This document shows, in pieces, positions 1,241 to 49,333 of a stretch of 64,000 nt of DNA. The DNA lies in contig NZ_JBAGBW010000001.1 in the NCBI RefSeq assembly GCF_039822205.1, forward strand, positions 62,001 to 126,000, read 5' to 3'. The notes beneath the pieces were generated by a model. It saw only the letters and a list, made by a program, of their open reading frames with translations. It made no database searches and was not told the DNA's origin. Position numbers and translations under genes: made by a program. This DNA comes from Thermodesulfobium sp. 4217-1 (GTDB lineage Bacteria > Thermodesulfobiota > Thermodesulfobiia > Thermodesulfobiales > Thermodesulfobiaceae). Numbering within the stretch: position 1 is the stretch's first letter; every line of letters starts with the position of its first letter.

Positions 1241-3325
1241 TCATTTAATCTTCTTAATAGAAACTGTACATTCTGTATATGGACAGTTGCCACCAATTGC
1301 GACCTTAGCAAGCCCTTTTTGGAGTCTAATATCAGACGCGCCCCTGCCATACGATCTGGTTCTGAGAGGTACATCATCCCCAAATCCATGAAGCATAAAA
1401 GCTACGTCTGGGTGTATATATTTTGTCAATTTTGATTTAATATGCTGCTTTTCTCCCTCATTTTCTACTTCAAGCAGATCGCCTTCCTTTATGCCAAGCT
1501 CGTTTGCCCTATCTTCATGTATATATATATGATTTTCACTAACGTATTCATTCAGCAATTTGTTGTTTGAAGTGGTTCTCCCTTGGGTATGGAGCGCACA
1601 TTTACTAGTGACTAATCTAAATCTGCCAGGTTTTAATTCTATCGGCTTTTCATAAGGAATAAATGAAGGGACTCCAACGTCCTCTAACTTTTTGGAGATA
1701 AATTCTATCTTACCAGAAGGGGTTTTAAACTTTAGGCCATCAACCCTATCCCACATTATAGGCTTATCTACCAGATCTATATAGCCCTTTTCATTAAAAT
1801 CTTCCAAACTGTAACCAGTTCCATCAAGCTGCCAGGCGATAAGCTCTTCAATATTGTTATATGGAAAATATTGACCCACTCCAAGCCTATTCGCAAGCTC
1901 TTTAAATATCCACGACCTTGGCCTGGTGTCAAATCTTCTTTGAACAGCAGCCTGCCTAAGGATATAGCCTGGCTTAGAGCCGTTTCGAGCTATCACATGA
2001 TCTGTTCTCTCAAGATATGTATCTTCTGGGAGTATCACATCGGAAAACCATCCTGTTTCACTAAAATTTATGTCGATCGAAACTAATAGGTCCAATTTTT
2101 TATAAGCACTTCTAATATAGTCCGGATCGGGAAGAGATGCAAGAGGATCGTGCCTGAAGGCAATATAGGCTCTAACGGGGTATGGCTCGTCTGTAAGCAG
2201 CACGCTTGCCAACTCTTGAGCAAGACCCCATTGTCCGCTAAGATGAGGATACTTTGTCCCGCATCCATCAAATCTTGGCTCATTTGACTTTGGAATTTGA
2301 GATAACAATGACTTTAAGGGCTTGCCCAAGGAACCTGGGCCCTTATTTATAATCAAACCACCCTTTGCCTCATATGTCCCGAGCAAAGCGTTAAGAGAAC
2401 AGATAGCGCGCCTGAGGTAGAAGTCATTTGAATACCAGGCAGTCATCCAGCCCAAATGAAATATAACTGAAGGCTTCGCATTTCCTACATCGTGAGCCAG
2501 TTTTACAATATCGGCTGCAGATATCCCTGTCTCCTTTTCAGCAAATTCTGGGGTATAGGGCTTCACAAAGTTTGAAAGCTCATCAAAACCTACAGTCCAT
2601 CTTTGTACAAAATCGACATCGTAAAGAGAATCCCTTATGATTACATGAATTAAAGCTAAAGCCAAAGCATAATCCGTACCAGGATTTATCATAAAAAATC
2701 TATCTGCTTTTGCAGCTGTGTAGTTCCATCTAACGTCGACCTGTACAAGTTTTCCGCCATTTTCTATCATATCTATAACATTTTTTGCCTCTCCTGTGAC
2801 AAGAGACTCCAGTAAATTTCTGCCAAAACTGACTAAGTATTTTGCATTTTTATAATCATAAGTCACACCATTTCTTGCAAGGCCTGCTACCGAGAGATGA
2901 GCATTGTGTATAGAGTTAGAGCATGTTGCGTGATGATTGAAATAATTCGGAGATCCAATTGCAGCTATGAATGCCTTCTCAAACTCAGTAATAGCGCCCC
3001 CTCTATCGGAAAGAACTACGCTCTTTGCTCCATAATTATCGATCACTTTTTTCAAATTATCTGCAACATAATCCAATGCCTCGTCCCAAGAAACGCTTCT
3101 CCATTTTCCCGAACCCCTTTCTCCATCGCGAATCAAAGGAGTTTTTGGCCTTTCAGAATCATTTAACAGGGTTTTTCCTGCAGCCCCTCGTGGACAAAGG
3201 TTATATCCACCCAAAAGATAGGGGTTGCCCCAGATATGTTCAACCTCATTGTCTTCCACATCAACCACTATGGGGCACCTTCCAGTACACATAGCGCAAA
3301 TACTATACACCCTCTTACTACCCAT
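1241..3325 (-). CDS. molybdopterin (Mo/W-bisPGD) oxidoreductase catalytic subunit, PsrA/PhsA-like
   Basis: This large catalytic subunit belongs to the DMSO reductase superfamily. Residues 10-17 (CxxCxxxC) plus the cysteine of CPRG at 44 would bind the N-terminal [4Fe-4S] cluster. A cysteine near residue 135 (HHATCSNS) sits where thiosulfate and polysulfide reductases place the Mo ligand. The C-terminal 120 residues form the molybdopterin dinucleotide-binding domain. The start is set at ATG 3325 because GGAGGA lies just upstream; an in-frame TTG four codons earlier is part of that ribosome site. There is no Tat signal, so the enzyme is predicted to be cytoplasmic, unlike classic PsrA. The substrate cannot be read from sequence; a sulfur oxyanion or polysulfide is a guess from similarity. 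Confidence 0.85.
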   Translation of the reverse strand: MGSKRVYSICAMCTGRCPIVVDVEDNEVEHIWGNPYLLGGYNLCPRGAAGKTLLNDSERPKTPLIRDGERGSGKWRSVSWDEALDYVADNLKKVIDNYGAKSVVLSDRGGAITEFEKAFIAAIGSPNYFNHHATCSNSIHNAHLSVAGLARNGVTYDYKNAKYLVSFGRNLLESLVTGEAKNVIDMIENGGKLVQVDVRWNYTAAKADRFFMINPGTDYALALALIHVIIRDSLYDVDFVQRWTVGFDELSNFVKPYTPEFAEKETGISAADIVKLAHDVGNAKPSVIFHLGWMTAWYSNDFYLRRAICSLNALLGTYEAKGGLIINKGPGSLGKPLKSLLSQIPKSNEPRFDGCGTKYPHLSGQWGLAQELASVLLTDEPYPVRAYIAFRHDPLASLPDPDYIRSAYKKLDLLVSIDINFSETGWFSDVILPEDTYLERTDHVIARNGSKPGYILRQAAVQRRFDTRPRSWIFKELANRLGVGQYFPYNNIEELIAWQLDGTGYSLEDFNEKGYIDLVDKPIMWDRVDGLKFKTPSGKIEFISKKLEDVGVPSFIPYEKPIELKPGRFRLVTSKCALHTQGRTTSNNKLLNEYVSENHIYIHEDRANELGIKEGDLLEVENEGEKQHIKSKLTKYIHPDVAFMLHGFGDDVPLRTRSYGRGASDIRLQKGLAKVAIGGNCPYTECTVSIKKIK

Positions 3326-3516
3326 GGTCTCCTCCAATTTATTTTGAAATAGTATAAACTAAATCTTAAAAATTGACAGAAAATTGCGACAATATTAATT
3401 CTACACTATTATAATCTATAATTATCAATTGATATTTAGTTTAGCAAAGTATTTTAAAATCGTTGATAAGAAGTATTTATTATTAAATATAAAATGATGA
3501 TAGAAAAGGAGTGTTT

Positions 3517-4039: not shown

Positions 4040-6199
4040 ATGAATATTATTAAGAATTGGTCCTTGAGGAAAAAGCTTTTAGCAATTACTTTTCTTAGTT
4101 TCTTTATATTCGGCGTTGCTCTTATAACTCTTACTTCATTTCAGCTTTTTGAAAACGGGCACAAAAGCGCCCAAGAGAAACTTCATTATGCAATGGACGC
4201 CTCAAATGAACTTTTGCAGGGATATACATCTAGATCTAAAGATATGGCAAAACTGCTCTCAGATAAGGAGAGCGTGGTAAAAGGAGTAGAAACGAAGAAT
4301 TTCGATCTATTGAAAAACGTACTTGTCCCATATATAAAGGAATACAAAGACCTCTACATTGTGGTAACAGACAACAAAGGAGACGTCATCATAAGAGCAC
4401 ATTCTCTTAACACGCCAATTGGAGATTCTATAGCAAATCAAATAAACGTTCAAAAGGCACTCAAGGGAGAAAATACCGTTGGCATTGAGGAAGGAAAGGT
4501 AGTCAAGCTCTCTATTCGTGCAGGATCGCCAGTCAAGGATAGTAACGGTAACGTTATAGGCACAGTGAGCGCAGGGTATACGATTTTCGACTCAAACAGG
4601 CTGGCAAGCGAGATGAAAAAATTATTAAATATTGATGCAACGTTCACGTTTGGCCAAGACATTGTCGCATCAACTTTAAATAAAGATGTCAAAAATCAAA
4701 AAATCCCCCAAAATATTTATGACAAGCTAACAAAGGGCGAAAGTTTTATCCAAAGATTTAACTTTCTTGGAAATGATTACTACAATGTAGTGATCCCTCT
4801 TAAAGATTCAAATAATAAGGTGGTAGGCTCTTATGTTCTCTCGTATCCACCATCGCTTATAGACGGTCCAATATATAACTCGCTAATAGTTCAAATAATT
4901 ACAATTATTCTTTGTCTCCTGATAGGGTTTCTGATAATCGGTGCAGGAATAGAGTTTATATTAATAAGGCCGCTTTCAAAAGCAAAGACTGATATAGATT
5001 GCCTTTCTACTGGAGATCTGTGCTCTGATATAAGCGTGTCATCAAGAGATGAGATAGGGCAAATTGCCCAGGCATCTCTAAAGCTTAGAGATAACTTCTC
5101 TGAGATTCTGCACGATATAAAAGCTGTACTTGACGATCTGTCCCAAGCCTCTAACAAGCTGTCAAATCTTTCGTCAGACGCAAAATACGCGTCAAGCGAG
5201 AGCTCAAGCTATGCCGACAAGACAGCTCAAAATTCTGAAGAGCTAAGCGCTACATTAGAAAAGCTAAACAATCATGTAACCATCTTATTGGGAGCCATAG
5301 AGTCAATAGCAAAAGGCGCAGAAGATCAGGCAAACTCTGCATCAAGCGTTGCTGACAAAATGGGCAAAATTTCAGAAAACGCACAAATCCTCCTTAAGAC
5401 CACCAGAGGAGTAGGTTCTCTTGCATCAGAAGCTGAAGAGAAGTCCAAAATGGGATCTTTGTTGATAGAGCGAAACGATTCTTCCTCTTTGCAGATATTG
5501 AACTCTGTCGAAGATCTATCGAAGACAATAATATCCCTATCAGAAAGATCAAATGATATAGTAAAAATAGTAGACATCATATCTCAGATCTCTGAACAGA
5601 CAAACCTCTTGGCTTTAAATGCGGCAATAGAGGCAGCACGAGCTGGCGATGCAGGAAGAGGATTCGCAGTAGTTGCAGACGAGGTTAGAAAATTAGCCGA
5701 AGAATCCCAAAAGGCTGCCAAAAATATTGGAGAGCTTATAGAGCAAACCAAGCAGGAAACGACCTTGGCTTCAGAAGCAATGAAAACTACTCTTGAAGAG
5801 GTAAAAAAGGGCAGAACCATAACGAAGGACTCAAGAGAAGCCTTTGAGCAAATCAGCTCAAACATTGACAGACTTCTTAAAGAGATACAATCAGCCCAAA
5901 ACAACGTAACAAAGGTAGAAGAAGACATTAGAAGTATAGAAACAAATATCAGCAACCTTGCAGCCCTTTCGGAAGAATATACTGCAAGCGCTCAAGAGAT
6001 GAACGCCTCTACATCAGAATTGAAAAAAGATATCGATGGGCTATCAGTAATTGCAAAAGATGGCTCCATTGCTGCGAACGAAGAGTCCGCTCTTTCAAAG
6101 GAATTGAGTTCTATGATGGAGGACGTGGAAAACATCTCAAAGAACCTAAGCGTTCATGTAGAGAAACTAAACGATAAAACTTCAAAATTTAAAATATAG
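4040..6199 (+). CDS. methyl-accepting chemotaxis protein with extracytoplasmic Cache-type sensor
   Basis: This 719-residue transmembrane chemoreceptor would feed the CheA/flagellar system. Order: membrane helix at about 13-34, a periplasmic sensor of roughly 245 residues resembling a Cache domain (the [11 protein letters not shown]-like region and a GYTIFDS segment), a second helix at about 280-307, HAMP, then a long coiled-coil signalling domain. The hairpin tip near residue 520 is the canonical [19 protein letters not shown] followed by [18 protein letters not shown]. The start is ATG 4040, preceded by GGGGAG; an upstream in-frame ATG at 4004 lacks a ribosome site. It is monocistronic, with a terminator after it. 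The ligand is unknown. Confidence 0.93.
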
Positions 6200-6213
6200 C
6201 AAAATTTATTTAG

Positions 6214-6269
6214 GCTCTTGTCGGCAGCATAGTTATATACTTGAGCACATGCTGGCAAGAGCTTTTTTT
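6214..6269 (+). terminator. rho-independent terminator after the chemoreceptor gene
   Basis: GCTCTTG pairs with CAAGAGC, with further pairing through GGCAGCAT and ATGCTGGC around a loop of about 18 bases. The 3' arm is followed directly by a run of seven T. It lies 15-70 bases after the chemoreceptor stop. Confidence 0.8.
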
Positions 6270-6387
6270 GAAAATCTTATCTGTCAGCATTCTAAACGTA
6301 CAAAAATCTTTAAAAATTTTTTAGATTTTTATTATTATCAAATTTCGTATAAAATAGATTATTAGCTAATTTTTAAGGAGGTAATCT

Positions 6388-6948
6388 ATGAGCATACTTG
6401 AAATTATCAAGTCAAGAAGGTCTGTTAGAAAATTTAAGGATATTACGGTTGAATCTGAAAAAATAGATCGATTAATCGAGGCTGCCATGTGGGCGCCAAG
6501 CGCTATGAATTCACAACCGTGGGCTTTCGTAGTAATTCAGGACAAGGCAGTTCTACAAACCATATCAGATAACTCAAAAAAGTTGCTTTTAGAAAATATG
6601 ACGAATTTCCCTGCGTTGGAAAAATACAGGGGCGTTTTAGAAAAGGATGATTTCAACATATTTTACAATGCGCCCGTTTTAATAACTATTTATGCAAAGG
6701 ATAATGGGCTTTATTCAAAAGAGGACACAGCCCTTGCTGCCCAAAATCTTATGCTTGAAGCTCATTCGATAGACCTTGGAACTTGCTGGATAGGGTTTGC
6801 AAGAGAATATATGGATCTAGAAGAAACAAAAAATAAATTCAAGGTATCCACAGAATACAGTGCAGTAGCGCCTATAATAGTAGGCTATCCAGAAATAGTG
6901 CCATCTCAGAGCATTCGAAACAAACCAATAATATTCTATAGGAGATAA
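6388..6948 (+). CDS. nitroreductase family FMN-dependent oxidoreductase
   Basis: This is a 186-residue flavoprotein of the NfsB/FRase-like fold. The N-terminal SRRSVRKF and the APSAMNSQPW stretch are the FMN phosphate and ring-binding signatures; GTCWIGFA and the C-terminal VGYPE turn complete the fold. Such enzymes reduce quinones, nitro compounds or other electrophiles with NAD(P)H. A GGAGG ribosome site precedes the ATG. It lies 19 bases before a flavodiiron protein gene, so a shared role in oxygen, NO or electrophile detoxification is plausible but not shown. A second member of the family is at 32486-33124. Confidence 0.9.
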   Translation: MSILEIIKSRRSVRKFKDITVESEKIDRLIEAAMWAPSAMNSQPWAFVVIQDKAVLQTISDNSKKLLLENMTNFPALEKYRGVLEKDDFNIFYNAPVLITIYAKDNGLYSKEDTALAAQNLMLEAHSIDLGTCWIGFAREYMDLEETKNKFKVSTEYSAVAPIIVGYPEIVPSQSIRNKPIIFYRR

Positions 6949-6967
6949 CTAAACAGGAGGAAGAGAT

Positions 6968-8140
6968 ATGAATTGTAAATTAGCAGATTCATTATATGAT
7001 GTAGGCGCTTTAGATTGGGAAATAAGAGATTTTCACGGGGTATATACCCCTCAAGGGAACAAGTATAACTCTTTTCTCATCTTAGACGAAAAGATAGCAG
7101 TTATAGACAGCGTGAAAGAGTGCTACGGAAAAGAGTCCATCTGTAAAATAAAAGAAATAACTCAAGGCAAAGAGGTAGATTACCTTATATCTTTACATAC
7201 AGAGCCAGATCATGCAGGCTCTATCATTGAATATCTCAAAGAATTTAAAAATATGAAAGTTGTATGTCTTGAAAAGAATTATGAGTTTATAAAAAACTTT
7301 TTGCCAGATCTTGATGATTCAAGAGTTTTAGTTTTAAAATCAGGGGAAAGCCTATCGATTGGAGAAAAAACTCTAAACTTAAAATCAATGCCAATGACCC
7401 ACTGGCCTGATACTACCAGTCTATATATCCCAGAAAAGGGGTGGCTCTTTACCTCAGACTTCTTTGGCTGCCTCATATCGCTATCAAAACCATTCTACGA
7501 TCAAACACAATCAGATATATATCCATTTATCAGAGATTATTTCGCGTTCTTAATGAGGCCTTTCGAATCCCTCACAAAAAAGGCTCTCGAATACTATAAG
7601 TCGCTAAACCCCACAATAATATTCCCAGCACATGGACCATTTTACAGAAGGCCAGAAGACATCAAATATATATTCGACACTACAGAAAAATTAATAAATG
7701 ACCCTACAGAGAACAAGGTAGTGATAGTTTACACATCTATGTGGCACACTACAGAAAAGATGGCAAAGTTAATCTCTGAGGGAGCAGGGTGCTCAGACTG
7801 TGAAGTAAAGGTATTTGACCTTAGAGAGGATCCGGTCTCTGTTATTATGGGAGAGATCATGACCTCTAAAGCCTTTGCAGTAGGTTCGCCCACGGTTTAC
7901 AACGGCGTATTTCCAAACATATTGCCACTGTTAAGGCTGATGAGACTTCTAAAATTAAAGGGCAAAAAGGCAGCCGTATTTGGCTCTTATGGTTGGTCGG
8001 GCGGCGCAGTAAAAGAAATAGAAGAAGCCATGAAACCGCTTGGAGTAGAGGTTATAGAAAAAATTGAAACAAGGTTTTCCCTAAAACCAGAAGAAGTAAA
8101 AAAGTGCTTAGAAATCGGCAAAATTTTATCTGAGACATAA
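6968..8140 (+). CDS. flavodiiron protein (A-type flavoprotein, O2/NO reductase)
   Basis: This 390-residue enzyme reduces O2 to water and/or NO to N2O in anaerobes. Residues 1-250 form a metallo-beta-lactamase-like diiron domain with ligand motif HTEPDH at about 76-81, the histidine of MTHWPD near 143, the aspartate of FTSDFFG near 162, and the histidine of PAHGPFY near 221. Residues 250-390 are a flavodoxin domain beginning VVIVYTSMWHTTEKMA. No rubredoxin domain is attached, so an external donor is needed. An AGGAGG ribosome site is present. It forms an operon with the upstream nitroreductase and the citramalate synthase that begins two bases after its stop. Confidence 0.95.
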   Translation: MNCKLADSLYDVGALDWEIRDFHGVYTPQGNKYNSFLILDEKIAVIDSVKECYGKESICKIKEITQGKEVDYLISLHTEPDHAGSIIEYLKEFKNMKVVCLEKNYEFIKNFLPDLDDSRVLVLKSGESLSIGEKTLNLKSMPMTHWPDTTSLYIPEKGWLFTSDFFGCLISLSKPFYDQTQSDIYPFIRDYFAFLMRPFESLTKKALEYYKSLNPTIIFPAHGPFYRRPEDIKYIFDTTEKLINDPTENKVVIVYTSMWHTTEKMAKLISEGAGCSDCEVKVFDLREDPVSVIMGEIMTSKAFAVGSPTVYNGVFPNILPLLRLMRLLKLKGKKAAVFGSYGWSGGAVKEIEEAMKPLGVEVIEKIETRFSLKPEEVKKCLEIGKILSET

Positions 8141-8142
8141 TT

Positions 8143-9765
8143 ATGAAAAAGTTATCAAGAAAAATAGAGCTTTATGACACTACCCTAAGAGACGGAGCCC
8201 AGAGAGAGGGCATATCTCTAACCTTAGAAGATAAATTAAAGATAGTCAAAAAGTTAGACGACTTTGGAATAGACTACATAGAAGCAGGTTGGCCAGGGTC
8301 CAATCCTAAAGACGAAAAATTTTTTGAACACGTAAAGGATATAAAGTTAAATTTTTCTAAGCTTACAGCGTTTGGATCGACGAGAAGGGTAAATGCCCTA
8401 CCAGAAGATGACAAAAATGTAATATCGCTACTGAATGCCAATACAAGCGTTATCACGATATTTGGAAAGTCTTGGGATCTGCACGTAAAAGAGGCATTGA
8501 AGACTAATCTTGAAGAAAACTTAAATATGGTTTTCGACACCATATCATATCTAAATTCAAAGGGCAAATCAGTATTTTTTGACGCAGAGCATTTTTTCGA
8601 TGGTTTTAAGAATAACAAAGAATATGCGCTTGCTGTATTAAAAAGGGCAAAGGACGCAAAAGCAAAAAGGATAGTCTTAGCTGACACAAACGGTGGCACC
8701 CTGCCAGATGAGATTCGAGACATAATAAGGGAAGTAAAATCTTACTTAGGCAAAAATGTAGCGCTTGGCATACACTGCCACAACGATAGCGAGCTTGCTG
8801 TGGCCAACTCAATTGCGGCTGTTCAAGAAGGAATAATCCAGGTTCAGGGTACTATTAATGGTTTTGGAGAAAGAGCAGGCAATGCGAATCTGTGTTCTTT
8901 AATACCTATTTTGCAGCTAAAAATGAACACCCCCCTCTTTGATGAGGAAAAGCTAAAAGCCCTAACTCCTCTTTCCAGATTTATAGATGAAATAGCCAAC
9001 ATAACGCCAAACGATCATCAGCCATTCGTAGGGAAATCGGTTTTTGCTCACAAAGGAGGCATACACGTAAGCGCCGTCCTGACAAATCCAAAAACATACG
9101 AGCACATAAACCCAGAAATAATAGGGAACAAGAGAAGGGTGGTAATTTCAGAGCTTTCTGGCACAAGCAATATAATATTCAAGGCTAAAGAGATGGGAAT
9201 AGATTTAAATAAAAATAGGCCAGAAACAAGGAAGATACTCTCTTCCATAAAAGAGCTTGAAAATCAAGGCTATCAATTTGAAGCCGCTGAAGCATCTTTT
9301 GAGATACTTTTATGGAAGGGTCTGTGTACAAGGAATGAGCTCTTTGACTTAATATACTGGAAAACTACTGTAGAATACAACGAAAGGCTAAAAGAGATCT
9401 ATGCAGAGGCAGTAATAAAATTAATCGTCGAAGGCAAAATAAGCCATAGCGTTGGAGACGGAAACGGTCCTGTAAACGCAATGGACAAAGCGCTTAGATC
9501 GGCGCTCTACAGCCACTTTCCATCTCTTGAAAGAATACATCTATCTGATTATAGAGTTCGTGTTCTTGGAGGGAGCTCAGGCACAGGAGCAGGAGTAAGG
9601 GTTCTAATAGACCACACAGACTCAGATGAGACATGGACAACCCTTGGGGTATCAAGCAATATTATTGAAGCAAGTTATATTGCGCTGGTTGATGGAATAG
9701 AATACGGCTTAAGAAAAGAAAAAATAAGAAAAGACCTAAAAGAAATATCAAAAAAGCTGCTATGA
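8143..9765 (+). CDS. cimA: (R)-citramalate synthase
   Basis: This enzyme condenses pyruvate and acetyl-CoA to citramalate, the first step of the threonine-independent isoleucine route. The 540-residue HMGL-like protein has the catalytic DTTLRDGAQREG motif near residues 11-22, the metal-binding HCHND near 211, and NGFGERAGNAN. The C-terminal 130 residues are a LeuA-type regulatory domain, where isoleucine feedback usually acts. Length and motifs fit CimA better than 2-isopropylmalate or homocitrate synthase, though the substrate is inferred. The start follows the flavodiiron stop by two bases, so it is probably translationally coupled. No other isoleucine gene is adjacent. Confidence 0.88.
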   Translation: MKKLSRKIELYDTTLRDGAQREGISLTLEDKLKIVKKLDDFGIDYIEAGWPGSNPKDEKFFEHVKDIKLNFSKLTAFGSTRRVNALPEDDKNVISLLNANTSVITIFGKSWDLHVKEALKTNLEENLNMVFDTISYLNSKGKSVFFDAEHFFDGFKNNKEYALAVLKRAKDAKAKRIVLADTNGGTLPDEIRDIIREVKSYLGKNVALGIHCHNDSELAVANSIAAVQEGIIQVQGTINGFGERAGNANLCSLIPILQLKMNTPLFDEEKLKALTPLSRFIDEIANITPNDHQPFVGKSVFAHKGGIHVSAVLTNPKTYEHINPEIIGNKRRVVISELSGTSNIIFKAKEMGIDLNKNRPETRKILSSIKELENQGYQFEAAEASFEILLWKGLCTRNELFDLIYWKTTVEYNERLKEIYAEAVIKLIVEGKISHSVGDGNGPVNAMDKALRSALYSHFPSLERIHLSDYRVRVLGGSSGTGAGVRVLIDHTDSDETWTTLGVSSNIIEASYIALVDGIEYGLRKEKIRKDLKEISKKLL

Positions 9766-10307
9766 AGGATAGATTTCTCTTATTCTCTACCATAGGAGAA
9801 CTTTTTCTTGTAGCAATATCAATTTTTATTTTAGAAACGTTTCAGCAGATGCCTGACTTTTATATAGATACGCAGGGCATATTTACATCAATATTGGTCG
9901 GAACGTTAATTTTTTTACTGGGATTCTACGTCTCAAAAGTTTTTTTATTTGCAGAAAAGATAAGCCAAGCCCTCTCTATTAATATCTTTAAACGGGTTAA
10001 TATAGTAGAGATATTTTATATTTCATTGCTCAGCGCTTTTTGTGAAGAAATGTTTTTTAGAGGATTAATGCAGAATTTTCTTGGGATATATATTGCGTCC
10101 ATTTTCTTTGGAATTTTACACACGCCAGAAATAAACATTAAGGGCCTTTTTTATGCAATATATATCTCAGGAGTTGGATATATCTTAGGAATACTTTACT
10201 TGCAACAGGGATCAATATTAGCCCCTATGATAGCTCACTTTGTTATAAATTTCTTGGGTGGCGTTGCCTTGATGTTTTATAATATATTTCCAGAATCAAA
10301 GCCTTAG
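9762..10307 (+). CDS. CPBP family intramembrane glutamic protease
   Basis: This is a 181-residue, multi-helix membrane protein. It carries the three CPBP/Abi signatures: EEMFFR (the EExxxR catalytic glutamates), FFGILH (FxxxH) and HFVIN (HxxxN/B). Eukaryotic members cleave prenylated CAAX proteins; bacterial members have varied or unknown substrates. It overlaps the end of cimA by four bases (ATGA), so it belongs to that operon. Its cellular target cannot be inferred from context. Confidence 0.88.
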   Translation: MKDRFLLFSTIGELFLVAISIFILETFQQMPDFYIDTQGIFTSILVGTLIFLLGFYVSKVFLFAEKISQALSINIFKRVNIVEIFYISLLSAFCEEMFFRGLMQNFLGIYIASIFFGILHTPEINIKGLFYAIYISGVGYILGILYLQQGSILAPMIAHFVINFLGGVALMFYNIFPESKP

Positions 10308-10425
10308 ATATTTGCTAACTTATAGCAAGTTTTTATAAAGTAGCATAAAAGAAGCCACAATTTCATATATAAGCAAAGCTTATAAAAAATTTGCACATAA
10401 TTATTTAAAACTCAAAATTTTTTGA

Positions 10426-10494
10426 TATAATATTCTCTGGGTTCCCCCCACAGCACGGCCATGAAGGTAAAACTTACTTCATGGCCTCTTTTTT
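10426..10494 (+). ncRNA. possible small RNA with its own promoter and terminator
   Basis: A TATAAT box at 10426-10431 has a weak -35 (TTTAAA, 10404-10409) 16 bases upstream. A transcript starting near 10438 would carry a C-rich stretch and end in a strong hairpin: GGCCATGAA pairs with TTCATGGCC (10457-10486), then a T-rich run to 10494. The product would be roughly 57 nt with no reading frame. The hairpin could instead simply terminate the upstream operon, whose stop is 150 bases away. The C-rich segment before the hairpin does not belong to the terminator stem. Confidence 0.35.
10457..10494 (+). terminator. rho-independent terminator
   Basis: A nine-base-pair stem GGCCATGAA/TTCATGGCC is extended internally by GTAA/TTAC around an AAC loop, and is followed by TCTTTTTT. 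The T-run is on the plus-strand side, so it serves plus-strand transcription coming from the cimA operon or from the small-RNA candidate. The opposite side has no T-run for the convergent gene at 10509. Confidence 0.85.
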
Positions 10495-10508
10495 AACAGA
10501 ATTGTTTG

Positions 10509-11564
10509 CTACAAAAACCTCAATAAGCCTAATATTATCTCTATCAAGATTAAAAGAATAATAGTAATTTCAAGAAAGTTCGCAATCTTTTGGAAAAAAT
10601 CTTCTCTTAATAACTGATATATTTCTGAAAGGGTTTTCAAATTTCTTTCAAGCGAGTTTTCCCAGTCTGATACATGTAGCTTCAAACCAAGCGATCTGTA
10701 GATCCTTGCAAGATACAAGTCCCCTATCAGCTTCAAGGCATTGTCGAGCCTTTCTCTATTAAGCGAAACGTTCAAGAAAAAGAGACTTATACCTCTAATT
10801 GGAGGCAGAAAAACTGATCTTTTTTCAAGAATGGACTCAAAATAATCTAAATTTTTGTCCAGCATTCTATCCAACGCCCTAATTTGAGCCAGTTCAACTT
10901 GAGAGAATTCAATTATCTCCAGGATGTCTTCATAGTCAGTGTCCACAACAAATGAGGCATTGTAATCGATTATCACCATATCAAATTCATAATAACTATG
11001 CACTATCTGTGTAGCCTCTTCTATCTCCATCTGTGATAGATTGGACTTCTCCATCCTAAGTATATGGCCTAAAATTTCTTTGTTTTTTTTAAGGAATAAG
11101 GACGGTTCAATTTCAACATCGTCTGTCTGAAACACTATGTAGTCTTCATATATTAGCTCTTCAAAGGGCTTCTTCAGGGTCTTATTTAAAGAACTTTTCA
11201 ACCCAGATACATAGCTGCAGACTCTCTCTTCAAGGTCGCTATCAAATAGATCTGATGAAATATCTTTTAAGTTCACAAATTCAGTTTTGCCATTCCACAG
11301 GAGTGAAATGGAAACTGCCCCAAAATCAAAAATCTTTAGATTCGCATTGGAGGGATAAAAGTCATCAATAATATCAAAGTCAAACGGCATTTCCAAGTTA
11401 ACAGTTAGGGGAGAGGTTTCATATTTCAACCTTTTAGGAGTAGATTTCGATCTCCTAAAATCCACCCTTTTTGAAGCGTTAAGAAGGTTTTGCGCAAGGG
11501 CAAGGTTTATTTCTTCAGCTATGTAAAAAGAATATATTGAAAAAATTTTTCCTCTGAATTCCAT
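10509..11564 (-). CDS. RMD1/YagE family protein (DUF155), C-terminally membrane-anchored
   Basis: This 351-residue protein has the layout of the RMD1/Sif2/YagE family (DUF155): a soluble body rich in acidic and hydrophobic residues, a conserved WENSLERNLKTL segment near residue 300, and one or two C-terminal hydrophobic helices (IANFLEITIILLILIEIILG). Eukaryotic relatives such as RMND1 are mitochondrial inner-membrane proteins needed for organellar translation. The bacterial function is unknown. It is a single gene facing the cimA operon. The family call rests mainly on the C-terminal third. Confidence 0.72.
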   Translation of the reverse strand: MEFRGKIFSIYSFYIAEEINLALAQNLLNASKRVDFRRSKSTPKRLKYETSPLTVNLEMPFDFDIIDDFYPSNANLKIFDFGAVSISLLWNGKTEFVNLKDISSDLFDSDLEERVCSYVSGLKSSLNKTLKKPFEELIYEDYIVFQTDDVEIEPSLFLKKNKEILGHILRMEKSNLSQMEIEEATQIVHSYYEFDMVIIDYNASFVVDTDYEDILEIIEFSQVELAQIRALDRMLDKNLDYFESILEKRSVFLPPIRGISLFFLNVSLNRERLDNALKLIGDLYLARIYRSLGLKLHVSDWENSLERNLKTLSEIYQLLREDFFQKIANFLEITIILLILIEIILGLLRFL

Positions 11565-11632
11565 AACTTGATTTTACTACAACTATTAAGGCATTATCTA
11601 GGGAATTTTATAAGTTGAACAAGAGTATATAT

Positions 11633-12121
11633 TTAGCGCCATGGGTTATGTATCTGTATAAAGTATTTGCTGACAATTAAGTGCTGATTTTTATAAGTCG
11701 AATCACTGTCTGTAAAATACTTCGTGACCCTATTAAGAATTTGTGCTTGATTGTCTTGTGAGGTAACGTCTACCCAGGGCAGTTTTGCGCCAAAATCAGA
11801 GTCGTAAAGAATATTGTTTTCACTGTCACAGGATATCTTTTCTAATTATCTTACCTGTTTGGGACCATTATTTGGATAAATACGATATAGATAATGATTG
11901 AGCTCATAATAATCTTTATTAAATACATCCTTTACCCATACGTCATATTCTTCAAAAAAATTATTCTTTTCCAGAATCAAACTATACGTATCAAGATAAG
12001 AAACAGAATAATTGTTTGAAGAAATGTAATACCACCTAACGGCAGCCAAAGAATTAGAAACGTTGAAACCTGAAAATAAAAATATCAATACAAGGCTAAA
12101 AATCGAGAAAAGCTTTTTCAT
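11633..12121 (-). pseudogene. secreted hypothetical protein interrupted by an in-frame TAA
   Basis: The first 91 codons encode a signal peptide (MKKLFSIFSLVLIFLFSGF... cut after about SLAA) and a domain starting VRWYYISSNNYSVSYLDT. A TAA at 11846-11848 ends this part. In the same frame, coding-like sequence continues for 70 more codons (LEKISCDSENN, DSDFGAKLPWVDV, then QILNRVTKYF) to a second TAA at 11633-11635. The downstream part has normal composition and no further stop, so a single nonsense change in a protein of about 160 residues is the simplest reading. A sequencing error is the alternative. The stop is TAA, so selenocysteine does not explain it. I do not recognise the family. Confidence 0.65.
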
Positions 12122-45627: not shown

Positions 45628-46227
45628 TTATTTTTTCTCCAATTTAACATATAGCTCGTTTAAAGAATTATAAAAATTCTCATTTGGGTCTTTACAGACC
45701 AAGCTTTTCATAAAACCAGCTATCGTGCCAGCGCTTTGGTCGTCTACCACGTCTACGTCATCTGGCCTATATGCGGCAGTGTAACCAAGAGCCCATATTA
45801 GCGCGTATCCCACAGAGTCATCAGAAGTGGTGTCGCTTGAATTGAGAGCTGATAAAAATGTTTTGCAGGTATAGTTTTTCGGATTAAAAACTAAATTTGT
45901 ATCTTTTTTTGAATTTCCAATATAGTGAAAAGTAAAATATTTTCTTACAAAATCAAGCAAAGTTGTGTTTAAATTTTGCGCACAGCCTTCACTCAAATCT
46001 GATGTCAAAGATTTCAACATATCGCTATTTAGAGATAGCAAGCTCTCGTCTTTAAAGGATAAGAAGCCCCATACCCACAAAGTCTGCAAAGCTACGCTGC
46101 CAGAATCAGTCGAATAGCTTTGGACAAAATCCCTGCATGTATACACATTTGGATCAAATCCTTGAGCATTAGAAATAGGATTAAAAGTAAAGAAAAAAAA
46201 TAAACCAAATAATATTAATTTTTTCAT
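45628..46227 (-). CDS. secreted protein with two HdeA-like repeats
   Basis: The 199-residue protein has a signal peptide (cut near SNAQG) and two similar halves. Each starts YTC-(K/R)-x-F and is followed by a helix with LxWxxG (WVWGF, IWALGY), a helical stretch, a second cysteine (EGC, LVC) and an N-rich turn before a final helix. This layout matches HdeA/HdeB-type acid-stress periplasmic chaperones, with each half able to form the single Cys-Cys disulfide. A fused double domain is uncommon. Function is inferred from pattern only. Confidence 0.55.
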   Translation of the reverse strand: MKKLILFGLFFFFTFNPISNAQGFDPNVYTCRDFVQSYSTDSGSVALQTLWVWGFLSFKDESLLSLNSDMLKSLTSDLSEGCAQNLNTTLLDFVRKYFTFHYIGNSKKDTNLVFNPKNYTCKTFLSALNSSDTTSDDSVGYALIWALGYTAAYRPDDVDVVDDQSAGTIAGFMKSLVCKDPNENFYNSLNELYVKLEKK

Positions 46228-46246: not shown

Positions 46247-46597
46247 TTATGGCTTTATGTATGTGAAACCCAGATCTTGAAGCTTCACTATCTCTGTAAT
46301 ACCAGCCCTTACAACCTTCGCCCAATTAAAAACTAAACCGGTATCTATCTTATAAAAATTTAGCGCATTATTACAAAATTCAAACATTACTCCTTTGCCA
46401 GATAAATCTTTCATAAGATTTTCAAGCTCGCCTCTCAAATCGCTTGTTAGTATCAGAACCCCTGCTGAGTTGGCCACAACTCTTATGTCGTATTCTGACT
46501 CACCCGATATGTCATTTATAAAATTATTAATATTTTTTACTGCAACCGTCCATTCTTCCAGCTTCGAAATGTGAAAACAAACTTTTAGCATACTCAT
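46247..46597 (-). CDS. DsrE-like family protein
   Basis: This 116-residue cytosolic protein has the alpha/beta layout of DsrE/DsrF-like sulfur-relay proteins: LKVCFHISKLEEW at the start, and GVMFEFCNNALNFYKI, where family members place a cysteine before a turn, then AGITEIVKLQDLGFTYIKP at the end. In sulfur oxidisers and reducers such proteins carry persulfide sulfur. It overlaps the preceding molybdopterin-binding gene by four bases, so sulfur transfer for molybdenum cofactor may be its role; this is inference. Confidence 0.75.
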   Translation of the reverse strand: MSMLKVCFHISKLEEWTVAVKNINNFINDISGESEYDIRVVANSAGVLILTSDLRGELENLMKDLSGKGVMFEFCNNALNFYKIDTGLVFNWAKVVRAGITEIVKLQDLGFTYIKP

Positions 46598-47574
46598 CTC
46601 ATCAAACCTCCATGTCCAGAATGTCTGATCATCTCATAGGTAATCCTCAATCCAGAAAAGGCTATCTGGCCAAACAGATCAAAAGCCCCCGGATCGAATC
46701 TAAGCGCGCCCCCTGGCATGCCAAAAATTGGCAGATCTCCTAAATATGCCACAAGGAACATTGCACCAGGTGAAAGTGGCGCACCATAACTTACTACAGC
46801 TGCACCAGATCTTCTTACTCCTTCAGCAGAAACGTCATCTGGACTCATCCCACCAGTTATAATTATAACCTGAGCTTTATTTTGAACAAACTTTAAAATA
46901 GTATTAGAAATTAAATCAGGATCATCTGGTAAACATTCCCTCATAAATACTTCAGAATTAAACTTTGCTACCTTACTCACAATTAGCGGGGTAAATGAAT
47001 CCTCTTTTCTACCATAATAAATCTCTGATCCAGTAACAATCAGACCTACTTTCATGCTTATAAAAGGATGAAGAGTTAGAACTTTCCCAAGATTTTTGCA
47101 CTCACCCTCAATTAATTCTATTTCTCTTTTCTTTACAACTAATCCTTGAACCTTTGCTTTTGCAACAATTCTACCTTCTTCAACTACAGTATTGCTTTTA
47201 AGAGTAGCCACAAAGGTATCTCCTCTTGAGTTTATAGCATCGAGTTGCCTTACCCTAACTTTAAAAATTCCCTTTTTTGTTGCAATCACATCAGCCCAGG
47301 CTTCACCAGGCATTTTAACAATCAGATTATCGCCAGATATCGCCCTTGCAAGCCTTAAAGCAGCCTCATCTTCATGAAGTTCGTCTTCAGCAATCTTTAA
47401 ATCCCATATAAAATCTTTGCCGATCTCTTTCAAAATAGGTATATCATCGGCAGTAATGACATGCCCTCTTCTAAAAACAGCCTCTTTATGTTTGCCGGGG
47501 ACAATCTTTGTCAGATCGTACCCCAAAGTAATACCGACACTTTCCTCAATAGGGATTTTCTTTGATGGATACAC
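46594..47574 (-). CDS. molybdopterin-binding protein (MoCF biosynthesis domain)
   Basis: The 326-residue protein has an N-terminal domain of about 165 residues, then a MogA/MoeA-type molybdopterin-binding fold: VGLIVTGSEIYYGR, VIIITGGMSPDDVSAEGV and the DLPIFGMPGGAL turn. The normal GLPGNP is changed to GMPGGAL. This type of protein is found beside molybdoenzyme genes; it may chaperone or deliver the cofactor. It lies one base after the MoeA-like gene and is coupled to the DsrE-like gene. Confidence 0.82.
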   Translation of the reverse strand: MYPSKKIPIEESVGITLGYDLTKIVPGKHKEAVFRRGHVITADDIPILKEIGKDFIWDLKIAEDELHEDEAALRLARAISGDNLIVKMPGEAWADVIATKKGIFKVRVRQLDAINSRGDTFVATLKSNTVVEEGRIVAKAKVQGLVVKKREIELIEGECKNLGKVLTLHPFISMKVGLIVTGSEIYYGRKEDSFTPLIVSKVAKFNSEVFMRECLPDDPDLISNTILKFVQNKAQVIIITGGMSPDDVSAEGVRRSGAAVVSYGAPLSPGAMFLVAYLGDLPIFGMPGGALRFDPGAFDLFGQIAFSGLRITYEMIRHSGHGGLMR

Positions 47575-47575
47575 T

Positions 47576-48739
47576 TTATACCTCCAGAGAGAATGGGTAA
47601 ACTCTTACTAAAGATCCCTCTTCTTGCGCTGGACCAGGATTTAATCTGGCAATATGTGTCATATTGTGAAACCCCTTGAACGAATGACTGTGTTGAGAAA
47701 ACTTTTTAAAATAAAACTTATTGTCGATTAGGGTTCCTCTTAAATATCTTGCTTCTTTAGACGACTTATTAAAAGGCTCACCAAGCATAGCGTCAAATGG
47801 CTCAAGAGAATAGTCCTGGCCAGAAAGAAGAAATATCAGAGGCAGTACAAAGAGATAAAAACCCAAAACAGCAGCCCAAACATTTCCAGATAAGCCAAAA
47901 TAATAAGTTTTATTTTTCTTGAAAGCCATTATTGACTTGCCAGGCTGCATCTTTACCCTCCAAAAAAGGGGCTCAAAAAATTTTTGGGCGATCGGAAACA
48001 AACCGTCGCTCGTATCGAATGAGGCGTTACCAAAAGAAATTACTATATCTGAGTCGTTCAAAGATCTTTCTAACTCACATTCGGTCTCCAGGTTGCCCCT
48101 GCATATCAGATTCCTTTTAATTTCTATATGAGGCTTATTTAAAATAGCTTCAAAGGTTGGCGTTAAAAAATTTTTATACATGCCTTCTTCACCGCAACCT
48201 ACAAGCTCTGCACCGATGGCAAGAAGAGATATCCTTACCTTTTTGACAACTCTTATCTTAGTCTTGTTGAGTCTACAAAAAGTTCCCAGATCGATTGGAG
48301 AAATTTTTGAGCCATTGAAAGACACAATTGAGCCAGCACCATACTCTTCGCCCTTTTTAAATATATTCTTGCCCTCTAATGGTATTTTCTTAAAATGAAC
48401 TATTTCGCCGCTTACTACAGAATCCTCTACGAGCGCTACGGCATTGCTGCCTTGAGGGAGAAGAGACCCTGTGGAAACCTTCACTGCTTCGTTGTGAAAA
48501 ATTTCTCTTAAAAATGGTTTTTCGGTTGTAGACTCGCCTACTATTTTGCACTCGTCACTGCAAGGCAAGCTTATAGCAAAACCATCCATGGCAGAGAGAT
48601 TTTGAGACGGCACGTCTTCTTCTACATCTATATCTTGAGCTAACACCCTGCCAATAGAGTATTTGAGGGGAATTAACTCCTTGCCCAAAACACGCGCATT
48701 TTGCAATATCAATAGTTTGGCCTTTTCAACCTCTATCAT
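47576..48739 (-). CDS. MoeA-like molybdopterin molybdenumtransferase, divergent
   Basis: The 387-residue protein has the MoeA layout: an N-terminal domain with DVPSQNLSAMDGFAIS (the family PxxxxSAMDGFA), a VSTGSLLPQGSNAVALVEDS segment, then the catalytic fold. Two core motifs are eroded: the usual TGGVSxGDYD region reads SFGNASFDTSD, and GLPGNP reads GLSGNVW. MPGKPxxFG-like MQPGKSIMAF is kept. It may still bind molybdopterin but have altered chemistry. It leads the three-gene molybdopterin/DsrE cluster. Confidence 0.82.
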   Translation of the reverse strand: MIEVEKAKLLILQNARVLGKELIPLKYSIGRVLAQDIDVEEDVPSQNLSAMDGFAISLPCSDECKIVGESTTEKPFLREIFHNEAVKVSTGSLLPQGSNAVALVEDSVVSGEIVHFKKIPLEGKNIFKKGEEYGAGSIVSFNGSKISPIDLGTFCRLNKTKIRVVKKVRISLLAIGAELVGCGEEGMYKNFLTPTFEAILNKPHIEIKRNLICRGNLETECELERSLNDSDIVISFGNASFDTSDGLFPIAQKFFEPLFWRVKMQPGKSIMAFKKNKTYYFGLSGNVWAAVLGFYLFVLPLIFLLSGQDYSLEPFDAMLGEPFNKSSKEARYLRGTLIDNKFYFKKFSQHSHSFKGFHNMTHIARLNPGPAQEEGSLVRVYPFSLEV

Positions 48740-48778: not shown

Positions 48779-49333
48779 TCAGCTTTTGCAAACTTTATCA
48801 GACTTTTTCAATATAACGTGATAAATTGAATCTGTTAGATCTTCCATATGAATTAGATCGAAACCCGAGAATACAAGGGTTCCCAGCAAAAGATCTTCTT
48901 CCACCCTGACCATTGCTGGAGGTCCAAAGTTTTCTTTTCTCTCTTTTTTCCATTCAATTATAGACAAAATACCTGAGGACTTCAGCCATCGATTTAGCTT
49001 CTTCAGCATCAGAGGAGCATCTTCTAACTCATGATAAACAGATGACAAAATTATGAGATCGAAATATTCTTCTTGAAAATCTACCTCTTCAAAGCTTGAC
49101 GTCAGAGCGACTATGTTGTTTACGCCTTCATTTTTTGCGCGATCTAACATTAGGTTTAATACTTCAGAATTTTTATCAACAGCAAATACAGTACCCTTGT
49201 TAAGCATTTTGGCAAAAGGTATTGAAAGAGCCCCTGTGCCGCAGCCAAGATCCAAAATTGTCAAATTATCATCGGTAATTAACTCATCCAAAACCTTTTT
49301 TACGTCAATAAATTGTGATATATCCTTATGCAA
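48779..49333 (-). CDS. class I SAM-dependent methyltransferase
   Basis: This 184-residue Rossmann-fold protein has motif I ILDLGCGTGALSIPFA near residue 28 and the acidic motif II VFAVDKNSEVL. ILSSVYHELEDAP resembles motif IV of small UbiE-like and arsenite-type methyltransferases. The substrate is unknown. It is 40 bases upstream of the MoeA-like gene on the same strand and may head that operon. GGAGGGT precedes the ATG. Confidence 0.88.
   Translation of the reverse strand: MHKDISQFIDVKKVLDELITDDNLTILDLGCGTGALSIPFAKMLNKGTVFAVDKNSEVLNLMLDRAKNEGVNNIVALTSSFEEVDFQEEYFDLIILSSVYHELEDAPLMLKKLNRWLKSSGILSIIEWKKERKENFGPPAMVRVEEDLLLGTLVFSGFDLIHMEDLTDSIYHVILKKSDKVCKS

Follow-up and report, generated by a model that had tools for sequence, protein, structure and literature searches.

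A MoeA-like, MoCF and DsrE gene trio of Thermodesulfobium as a candidate module for late molybdenum or tungsten cofactor maturation

The stretch of DNA analysed here, referred to as the window, comprises 64,000 nucleotides from Thermodesulfobium sp. 4217-1 and carries three adjacent genes encoding a MoeA-like protein, a protein with a MogA/MoeA-type domain (MoCF protein) and a DsrE-family protein. A preliminary description, made from the letters alone, had placed three open reading frames (ORFs) here and quoted the motifs SFGNASFDTSD, GLSGNVW and GMPGG. The ORFs and the motifs were all recovered, the first two motifs at residues 235 and 282 of the MoeA-like protein and the third at residue 285 of the MoCF protein. 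Our analysis supports, by analogy, a role in cofactor maturation, and we regard the chances as evenly balanced that these genes form the nucleus of a conserved operon which carries out a late, specialised part of the maturation of the molybdenum (Mo) or tungsten (W) cofactor, alongside the ordinary moa/moe genes that the same genome has on contig C10. The three genes, each identified as an ORF with Pfam matches, are as follows (aa, amino acids).

47576-48739, minus strand: MoeA-like protein, 387 aa
46594-47574, minus strand: MoCF protein (MogA/MoeA-type domain), 326 aa, GTG start
46247-46597, minus strand: DsrE-family protein, 116 aa

The genes are tightly packed. The coupling by a four-base overlap described earlier for the DsrE gene was found between the MoCF and DsrE genes (46594-46597), while the MoeA-like and MoCF genes lie one base apart. 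A five-gene order of methyltransferase, MoeA-like, MoCF, DsrE and HdeA-like gene is identical in all four genomes of the genus. Pairwise ratios of non-synonymous to synonymous substitution (dN/dS) for the three trio genes ranged from 0.07 to 0.20 in eight of nine comparisons, one DsrE comparison being without dS; values for the MoeA-like gene (0.10-0.13) were similar to those of an ordinary MoeA from the same genomes (0.09-0.12). As the order is the same in all four genomes and dN/dS lies well below 1, the trio is not a chance arrangement, and the purifying selection rules out that it is a pseudogene.

The MoeA-like protein scored above the Pfam cut-offs for MoeA_N (94 bits) and MoCF_biosynth (35 bits), with MoeA_C under its cut-off (14.6 vs. 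22.1 bits). Over about 384 of the 387 residues, its AlphaFold model (pLDDT 91.9) aligned with Cnx1E at Z scores of 36.6-37.2 and with E. coli MoeA at 34-35, and the protein is predicted to retain the complete four-domain MoeA fold. When aligned with E. coli MoeA, whose numbering is used throughout for MoeA residues, it retains D59, T100, E188, D259, K282, R350 and S371 and bears the substitutions R137F, D142E, K275R, K279Q, P298S, P301V and S303A. The position of D228 is occupied by G, N, S or Y across the four genus genomes, and of the GGxSxG motif G251 and S254 are retained and G252 and G256 are gone. General MoeAs (29 of 30 fetched loci) had D228 in 29/29, P298 in 27/29 and P301 in 28/29 cases; all three residues are lost in all four genus rows. 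Because of the missing D228, P298, P301 and GGxSxG, we file the protein as a MoeA-fold paralogue and not as a MoeA enzyme. Compared with the molybdenum insertases MoeA, gephyrin E and Cnx1E, it is thus alike in the predicted fold and in most of the retained residues (D59, T100, E188, D259, R350 and S371), but differs at D228, K279, P298, P301, S303, G252 and G256 and in its MoeA_C score. Part of the active-site residues is retained, but the region of domain III that faces the metal and AMP has changed. Several of the same positions have been mutated in solved variants of the E. coli and Arabidopsis proteins (D228A, K279Q and Cnx1E S328A); Cnx1E S328 is treated as equivalent to S303 of E. coli MoeA in one report (PMC13197769). 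A second eroded MoeA of 380 aa is encoded on contig C10 (L028, 9296-10438; genome G000), where it adjoins MoaB/Mog. It has S298, V301 and A303 in common with the window protein, and a quick tree groups the two (SH-aLRT 93.8), a grouping that carries a long-branch warning.

In the MoCF protein, Pfam detected PF00994 (54 bits), while the N-terminal half had no Pfam match. Residues 172-310 of its AlphaFold model (pLDDT 93.3) aligned with MoaB2 (Z 17.0, rmsd 2.1), and the C-terminal half is predicted to resemble MogA/MoaB and MoeA domain III. A comparison of the MoCF profile with that of the MoeAs paired with MoCF in other genomes (see below) gave a probability of 99.0%. E184, D217 and D247 are invariant in all 52 aligned rows of the family and P287 in 50 of them. 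Judged by eye, D217 and D247 correspond to D49 and D82 of MogA, and the protein has the PF00994 domain together with the two essential aspartates of MogA/MoaB. Like MogA/MoaB, the molybdopterin (MPT) adenylyltransferases, and MoeA domain III, it has acidic residues at the PDD and SPDD positions, but it differs from the single-domain MogA/MoaB by an additional N-terminal half of about 170 residues. It stays under the MogA/MoaB equivalog cut-off (NF006932, 16.6 vs. 158 bits) and under that of TIGR00177 (52.9 vs. 85.35 bits), and the oxyanion lysines are absent. The family is widespread and probably the one called 'MoeA_like' (cd03522). Two loci of one genome (L036, 8869-10494; L037, 9088-10938) encode MoCF fused to an N-terminal region that appears FmdE-like by eye.

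Species genomes were scanned with the MoCF alignment; of the 551 stretches confirmed among the matches listed, the best 80 loci (L038-L117) are considered here. Flanks reached at most 10 kb and were often shorter (3.3 and 3.4 kb for the shortest loci), so that absences are lower bounds. A MoCF ORF was called, by longest-ORF calling, in 73 of the 80 loci; the other seven were left out of the neighbourhood counts, and each neighbour cluster took its name from the Pfam matches of a single representative. MoeA lies directly downstream of MoCF in 22 of the 73 loci, and the pairing recurs in distant anaerobic organisms. Another 19 have a xanthine-dehydrogenase (XDH)-type neighbourhood without an adjacent MoeA, seven have an enzyme of the bis-molybdopterin guanine dinucleotide (bis-MGD) type without an adjacent MoeA call (some at a contig edge, and including L113, where one ORF separates MoCF from MoeA), and 25 have other neighbourhoods. 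L044 and L076, each with a MoeA match by tblastn and no called MoeA ORF, were not counted as pairs; L113 is among the 23 paired MoeAs of the residue tables and not among the 22 direct pairs. Within 7 kb of these 22 pairs we found an ORF for a bis-MGD enzyme in 18 cases, MobB in eight, FdhD in seven and an XDH-type cluster in none. A DUF364-type protein, named by Pfam on one representative, occurs near the MoCF gene in six of the 73 loci (L038, L049, L052, L057, L102 and L117).

The paired MoeAs have themselves changed in a regular way. P298 is replaced by Ser in 21 and S303 by Ala in 22 of the 23, the latter change being present also in 5 of the 29 general MoeAs, while D59 and T100 are retained in all 23 and in the MoeA-like proteins of all four genus genomes. 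The combination of Ser in place of P298 with Ala in place of S303 beside a MoCF gene, which marks the paired-MoeA group of Bacillota, occurs in all four genus rows. As both replacements are typical of paired MoeAs, GLSGN in the window protein can be read as the paired-MoeA pattern taken further. The motif losses for which the MoeA-like protein had been called degenerate are thus real, but judged by these alignments they are a recurrent trait of MoCF-paired MoeAs and no oddity of the window. Ten pairs have nearby an in-frame TGA in a formate dehydrogenase (FDH) motif; nine of these adjoin the pair and that of L068 lies 2.4 kb away. All ten are among the 15 loci whose MoeA lacks E188, D228 or both, and none is among the eight keeping both (Fisher p 0.003); these counts are not independent, because the eroded paired MoeAs form one clade (100/100). 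No report of a MoCF-MoeA-FDH pairing was met in the literature searched, with most subscription papers lying outside that search.

The trio is not the only set of cofactor genes in its genome. Seven PF00994 proteins are encoded there, and contig C10 carries a run of genes for two MoeAs, one of 400 aa and the other of 639 aa and extended at its C-terminus, together with MoaA and MoaC (both named by eye), a MoaB/Mog of 165 aa and the 380-aa MoeA-like protein. Exactly four MoeA_N proteins were found in each of the four genus genomes. The earlier view that the trio is not ordinary MoeA agrees with these findings, and the standard moeA and mogA copies for which a check had been proposed do exist on C10; the possibility that the trio is the only moe/mog set is ruled out. 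FdhD is present in all four genus genomes, and the genome of the window has a MobA-FdhD fusion of 458 aa (L158, 808-2184). Together, the moa/moe run on C10 and this fusion indicate that canonical synthesis is supplied elsewhere in the genome.

Five PF00384 (bis-MGD-type) genes were detected in the same genome: an FDH-alpha gene (905 aa, above the equivalog cut-off), two FDH-N-type genes, a TtrA-like gene and a PhsA-like gene. The preliminary description had thought of 'the molybdoenzyme in this genome', which is thus one of five, none of them beside the trio. The PhsA-like protein is the molybdoenzyme inside the window:

1241-3337, minus strand: PhsA-like bis-MGD-type oxidoreductase, 698 aa (PhsA, 549 bits, below the cut-off of 694)

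The two FDH-N-type genes lie in operons near each other (L155, 8523-11516 and 14759-17755), one with an in-frame TGA, probably for selenocysteine, and one without; the gene without TGA scores above cut-off. An XDH-type enzyme with MoCoBD_2 was found in none of the four genus genomes (6 of 14 control genomes were positive), and a role in XDH maturation was rejected on this ground. With no MoCoBD_2 enzyme found and five PF00384 genes present, the clients open to the module are enzymes of the bis-MGD type, above all FDH.

The best reading of these data is that the module serves bis-MGD enzymes, by a mechanism that we infer as follows. The MoCF and MoeA-like proteins would bind each other; MoCF may hold or activate molybdopterin in a Mog-like manner, and the MoeA-like protein may hold the cofactor or oxyanion in its altered pocket and hand it to bis-MGD assembly and to FDH-type enzymes. 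Canonical MoeA would not be replaced. A genetic precedent for such a module is known from Methylorubrum extorquens, in which a single MoeA out of five serves the W-FDH jointly with MobB and FdhD (PMC13197769). The DsrE protein would be a genus-level addition and optional thiol partner that may, through Cys75, supply or protect a thiol or persulfide.

A more specific arrangement, which we consider quite unlikely, is that MoCF joins with the eroded MoeA in a split insertase, a heteromer tied to selenocysteine FDH and related bis-MGD enzymes. Here the MoeA-like protein would provide the domain I/II half of the cleft (D59, T100) and MoCF the domain-III-like half (E184, D217, D247, P287), which would leave MoeA's own domain III free to erode. 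Counting against this, a test over all conserved columns, with assumed domain borders, showed no significant excess of losses in domain III (Fisher 0.69 and 0.50) and does not favour erosion limited to this domain, and MoCF lacks the oxyanion lysines.

An altered active site within an intact predicted fold would also be expected of a protein recruited away from cofactor synthesis to serve as a non-catalytic scaffold, as with Glp, the FtsZ-binding MoeA homologue of Actinobacteria. Glp homologues likewise combine the MoeA fold with low active-site conservation (PMC11733289), and Bacillota or Firmicutes do not occur in the main text of that paper. One FDH-paired MoeA that was tested (L078) scored best with the Glp model, yet under its cut-off (266 vs. 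475 bits). The window protein itself scored higher with the ordinary MoeA model PRK10680 (163.6 bits) than with the Glp model NF045515 (112.6 vs. 475 bits), all under cut-off. Its gene context also differs from that of Glp: next to it are genes for a MogA-type protein and DsrE instead of division genes, and in other genomes FDH, FdhD (7/22) and MobB (8/22) are found in the vicinity of paired MoeAs. We therefore hold a scaffold function to be fairly unlikely.

A further alternative is a tungsten-selective insertase, or one for another oxyanion, analogous to the archaeal MoeA-PBP paralogue or to MoeA1 of Methylorubrum extorquens. According to a 2026 report, MoeA1 is one of five MoeAs and forms a tungsten-specific branch that matures a single W-FDH together with MobB and FdhD; mutants showed it to be essential for W incorporation (PMC13197769). 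In setting one of several MoeA paralogues aside for FDH, and in having a Ser-to-Ala change in the metal pocket, this branch resembles the system proposed here (PMC13197769). The S303A change of the window protein and of 22/23 paired MoeAs is that of MoeA1, and the oxyanion loop is altered (K279Q). Exchange of the Ala in MoeA1 (A312S) relaxed metal choice less than R291K did, a result that the authors qualify by the continued presence of MoeA2; the parts consulted describe no MoCF or DsrE partner (PMC13197769). The W-selective type is marked by Arg in place of K282 together with Ala in place of S303; the window protein has Lys and Ala. S303A occurs in general MoeAs as well (5/29), and D228 is gone. 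ModA and one PBP_like_2 protein each scored above cut-off in all four genus genomes, and the metal supply genes are uninformative as to W or Mo. Taken together, a W-selective insertase is unlikely.

The DsrE-family protein matches PF02635 (31 vs. 22.7 bits) and falls under the NCBIfam YedF cut-off (13.1 vs. 110 bits). It matches MTH1491 (1l1s) over its full length (E 1.4e-9) and also resembles ST0148 (2pd2). With these proteins, deposited as hypothetical, it has the conserved Cys in common, but linkage to moe genes was seen in the genus of the window only. Cys75 is invariant in all nine aligned rows, so that by sequence the protein has both the DsrE family match and the conserved Cys of DsrE/TusD sulfurtransferases; a paralogue on contig C45 of the same genome has Ser at this position. 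By tblastn, no DsrE was found near MoCF in any of the 80 loci. Among 32 genomes searched, DsrE homologues occurred in five beyond the own one, with no MoCF or MoeA by tblastn within 11-17 kb; matches were likewise obtained in 7 of 98 genomes of one phylum and in 10 of 22 genomes of one class, and the short flanks of these loci contained no MoCF or MoeA by tblastn. In one other genome (L150, G078; 4436-11704) a DsrE homologue stands in a co-directional run whose other genes were read by eye as thiGHFE-like, as ThiS/MoaD-like and as coding for an AOR-type oxidoreductase.

These observations bear on the earlier proposal that the genes form a dedicated cofactor-maturation or sulfur-insertion set. 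The first half is supported by analogy, as MoCF-MoeA pairs elsewhere lie near bis-MGD enzymes. For the second half, in which DsrE would give sulfur to the cofactor via the MoeA/MoCF pair, one may cite the four-base MoCF/DsrE overlap in the genus, the invariant Cys75 and the run with thiamine-sulfur genes just mentioned. In the loci searched, however, the linkage was found nowhere outside the genus, the own paralogue lacks the Cys, and FdhD, the FDH sulfurtransferase, is present in all four genomes, which also rules out that DsrE substitutes for a missing FdhD. The reactions of MoeA and MogA are not known to require a sulfur donor. We regard sulfur insertion as very unlikely.

Several points weigh against the trio acting as a late maturation module for bis-MGD enzymes. 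The first concerns descent. The window MoeA-like protein sits on a long branch (1.85 changes per site), and free MoeA trees (12 rows omitted from the careful tree, two from the quick tree) put it outside the clade of paired MoeAs. Forcing it into that clade gave p-AU 0.4 for all pairs and 0.7 for the eroded ones, the forced tree being better in the latter case, and 0.89 in the quick-tree run, again with the better forced tree. These trees neither show nor reject a common descent of the window protein and the paired MoeAs. The window MoCF protein lies outside the clade of MoCF proteins paired at FDH loci and groups weakly (SH-aLRT 91) with sequences from two Bacillota metagenome-assembled genomes (L102 and L043), of which L043 sits in an XDH-type setting. 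Secondly, no bis-MGD ORF was found within 7 kb of four of the 22 pairs (L057, L059 on a short contig, L084 and L098), and in the genus the operon is not beside FDH or another bis-MGD enzyme. Thirdly, the genus MoCF proteins end before the C-terminal CxxCxxC..C tail present in 68 of the 80 homologues, and the link of DsrE to MoCF and MoeA is, as far as searched, a trait of the genus. The pair label requires seven changes on the MoCF tree, and the MoCF-MoeA pairing may have arisen or been retained more than once. We rejected the idea of one lineage that brought MoCF and MoeA jointly out of the FDH clade to the window: the MoCF tree does not show it, and the MoeA trees speak neither for nor against it.

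How different Mo and W enzymes are equipped from one pterin pool is a largely unsolved problem. The recurring MoCF-MoeA pair near selenocysteine FDH, with its regularly eroding active site, points to specific candidates for factors that handle the cofactor for FDH. This would be relevant, if a late maturation role is true, to CO2 reduction by active FDH made in foreign hosts, for which cofactor assembly is described as a barrier (PMC13197769).

Around the trio, the co-directional run is completed by a gene at either end, and a mosaic tract lies within the MoCF gene:

48779-49333, minus strand: class I methyltransferase, 184 aa (Pfam Methyltransf_31, 74.7 bits)
45628-46227, minus strand: HdeA/HdeB-like secreted protein, 199 aa (Pfam HdeA, 30.4 vs. 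22 bits)
46756-47467, no strand: mosaic tract within the MoCF gene (sliding identity and site-by-site pattern)

The methyltransferase gene is the first of the run and lies 39 bases ahead of the MoeA-like gene; the HdeA/HdeB-like gene, whose signal peptide was judged by eye, starts 19 bases past the DsrE gene. The five genes probably form one transcript; a promoter and terminator scan gave signals at chance level. The mosaic tract, about 0.7 kb long, is nearly identical to the sequence of G003, a different species of the genus; its two flanks show about 97% identity to G002 and about 75% to G003. The site-by-site pattern has one exception, at 47395. The tract is either a recent recombination or a chimeric contig resulting from assembly, and it leaves the MoeA-like and DsrE genes untouched.

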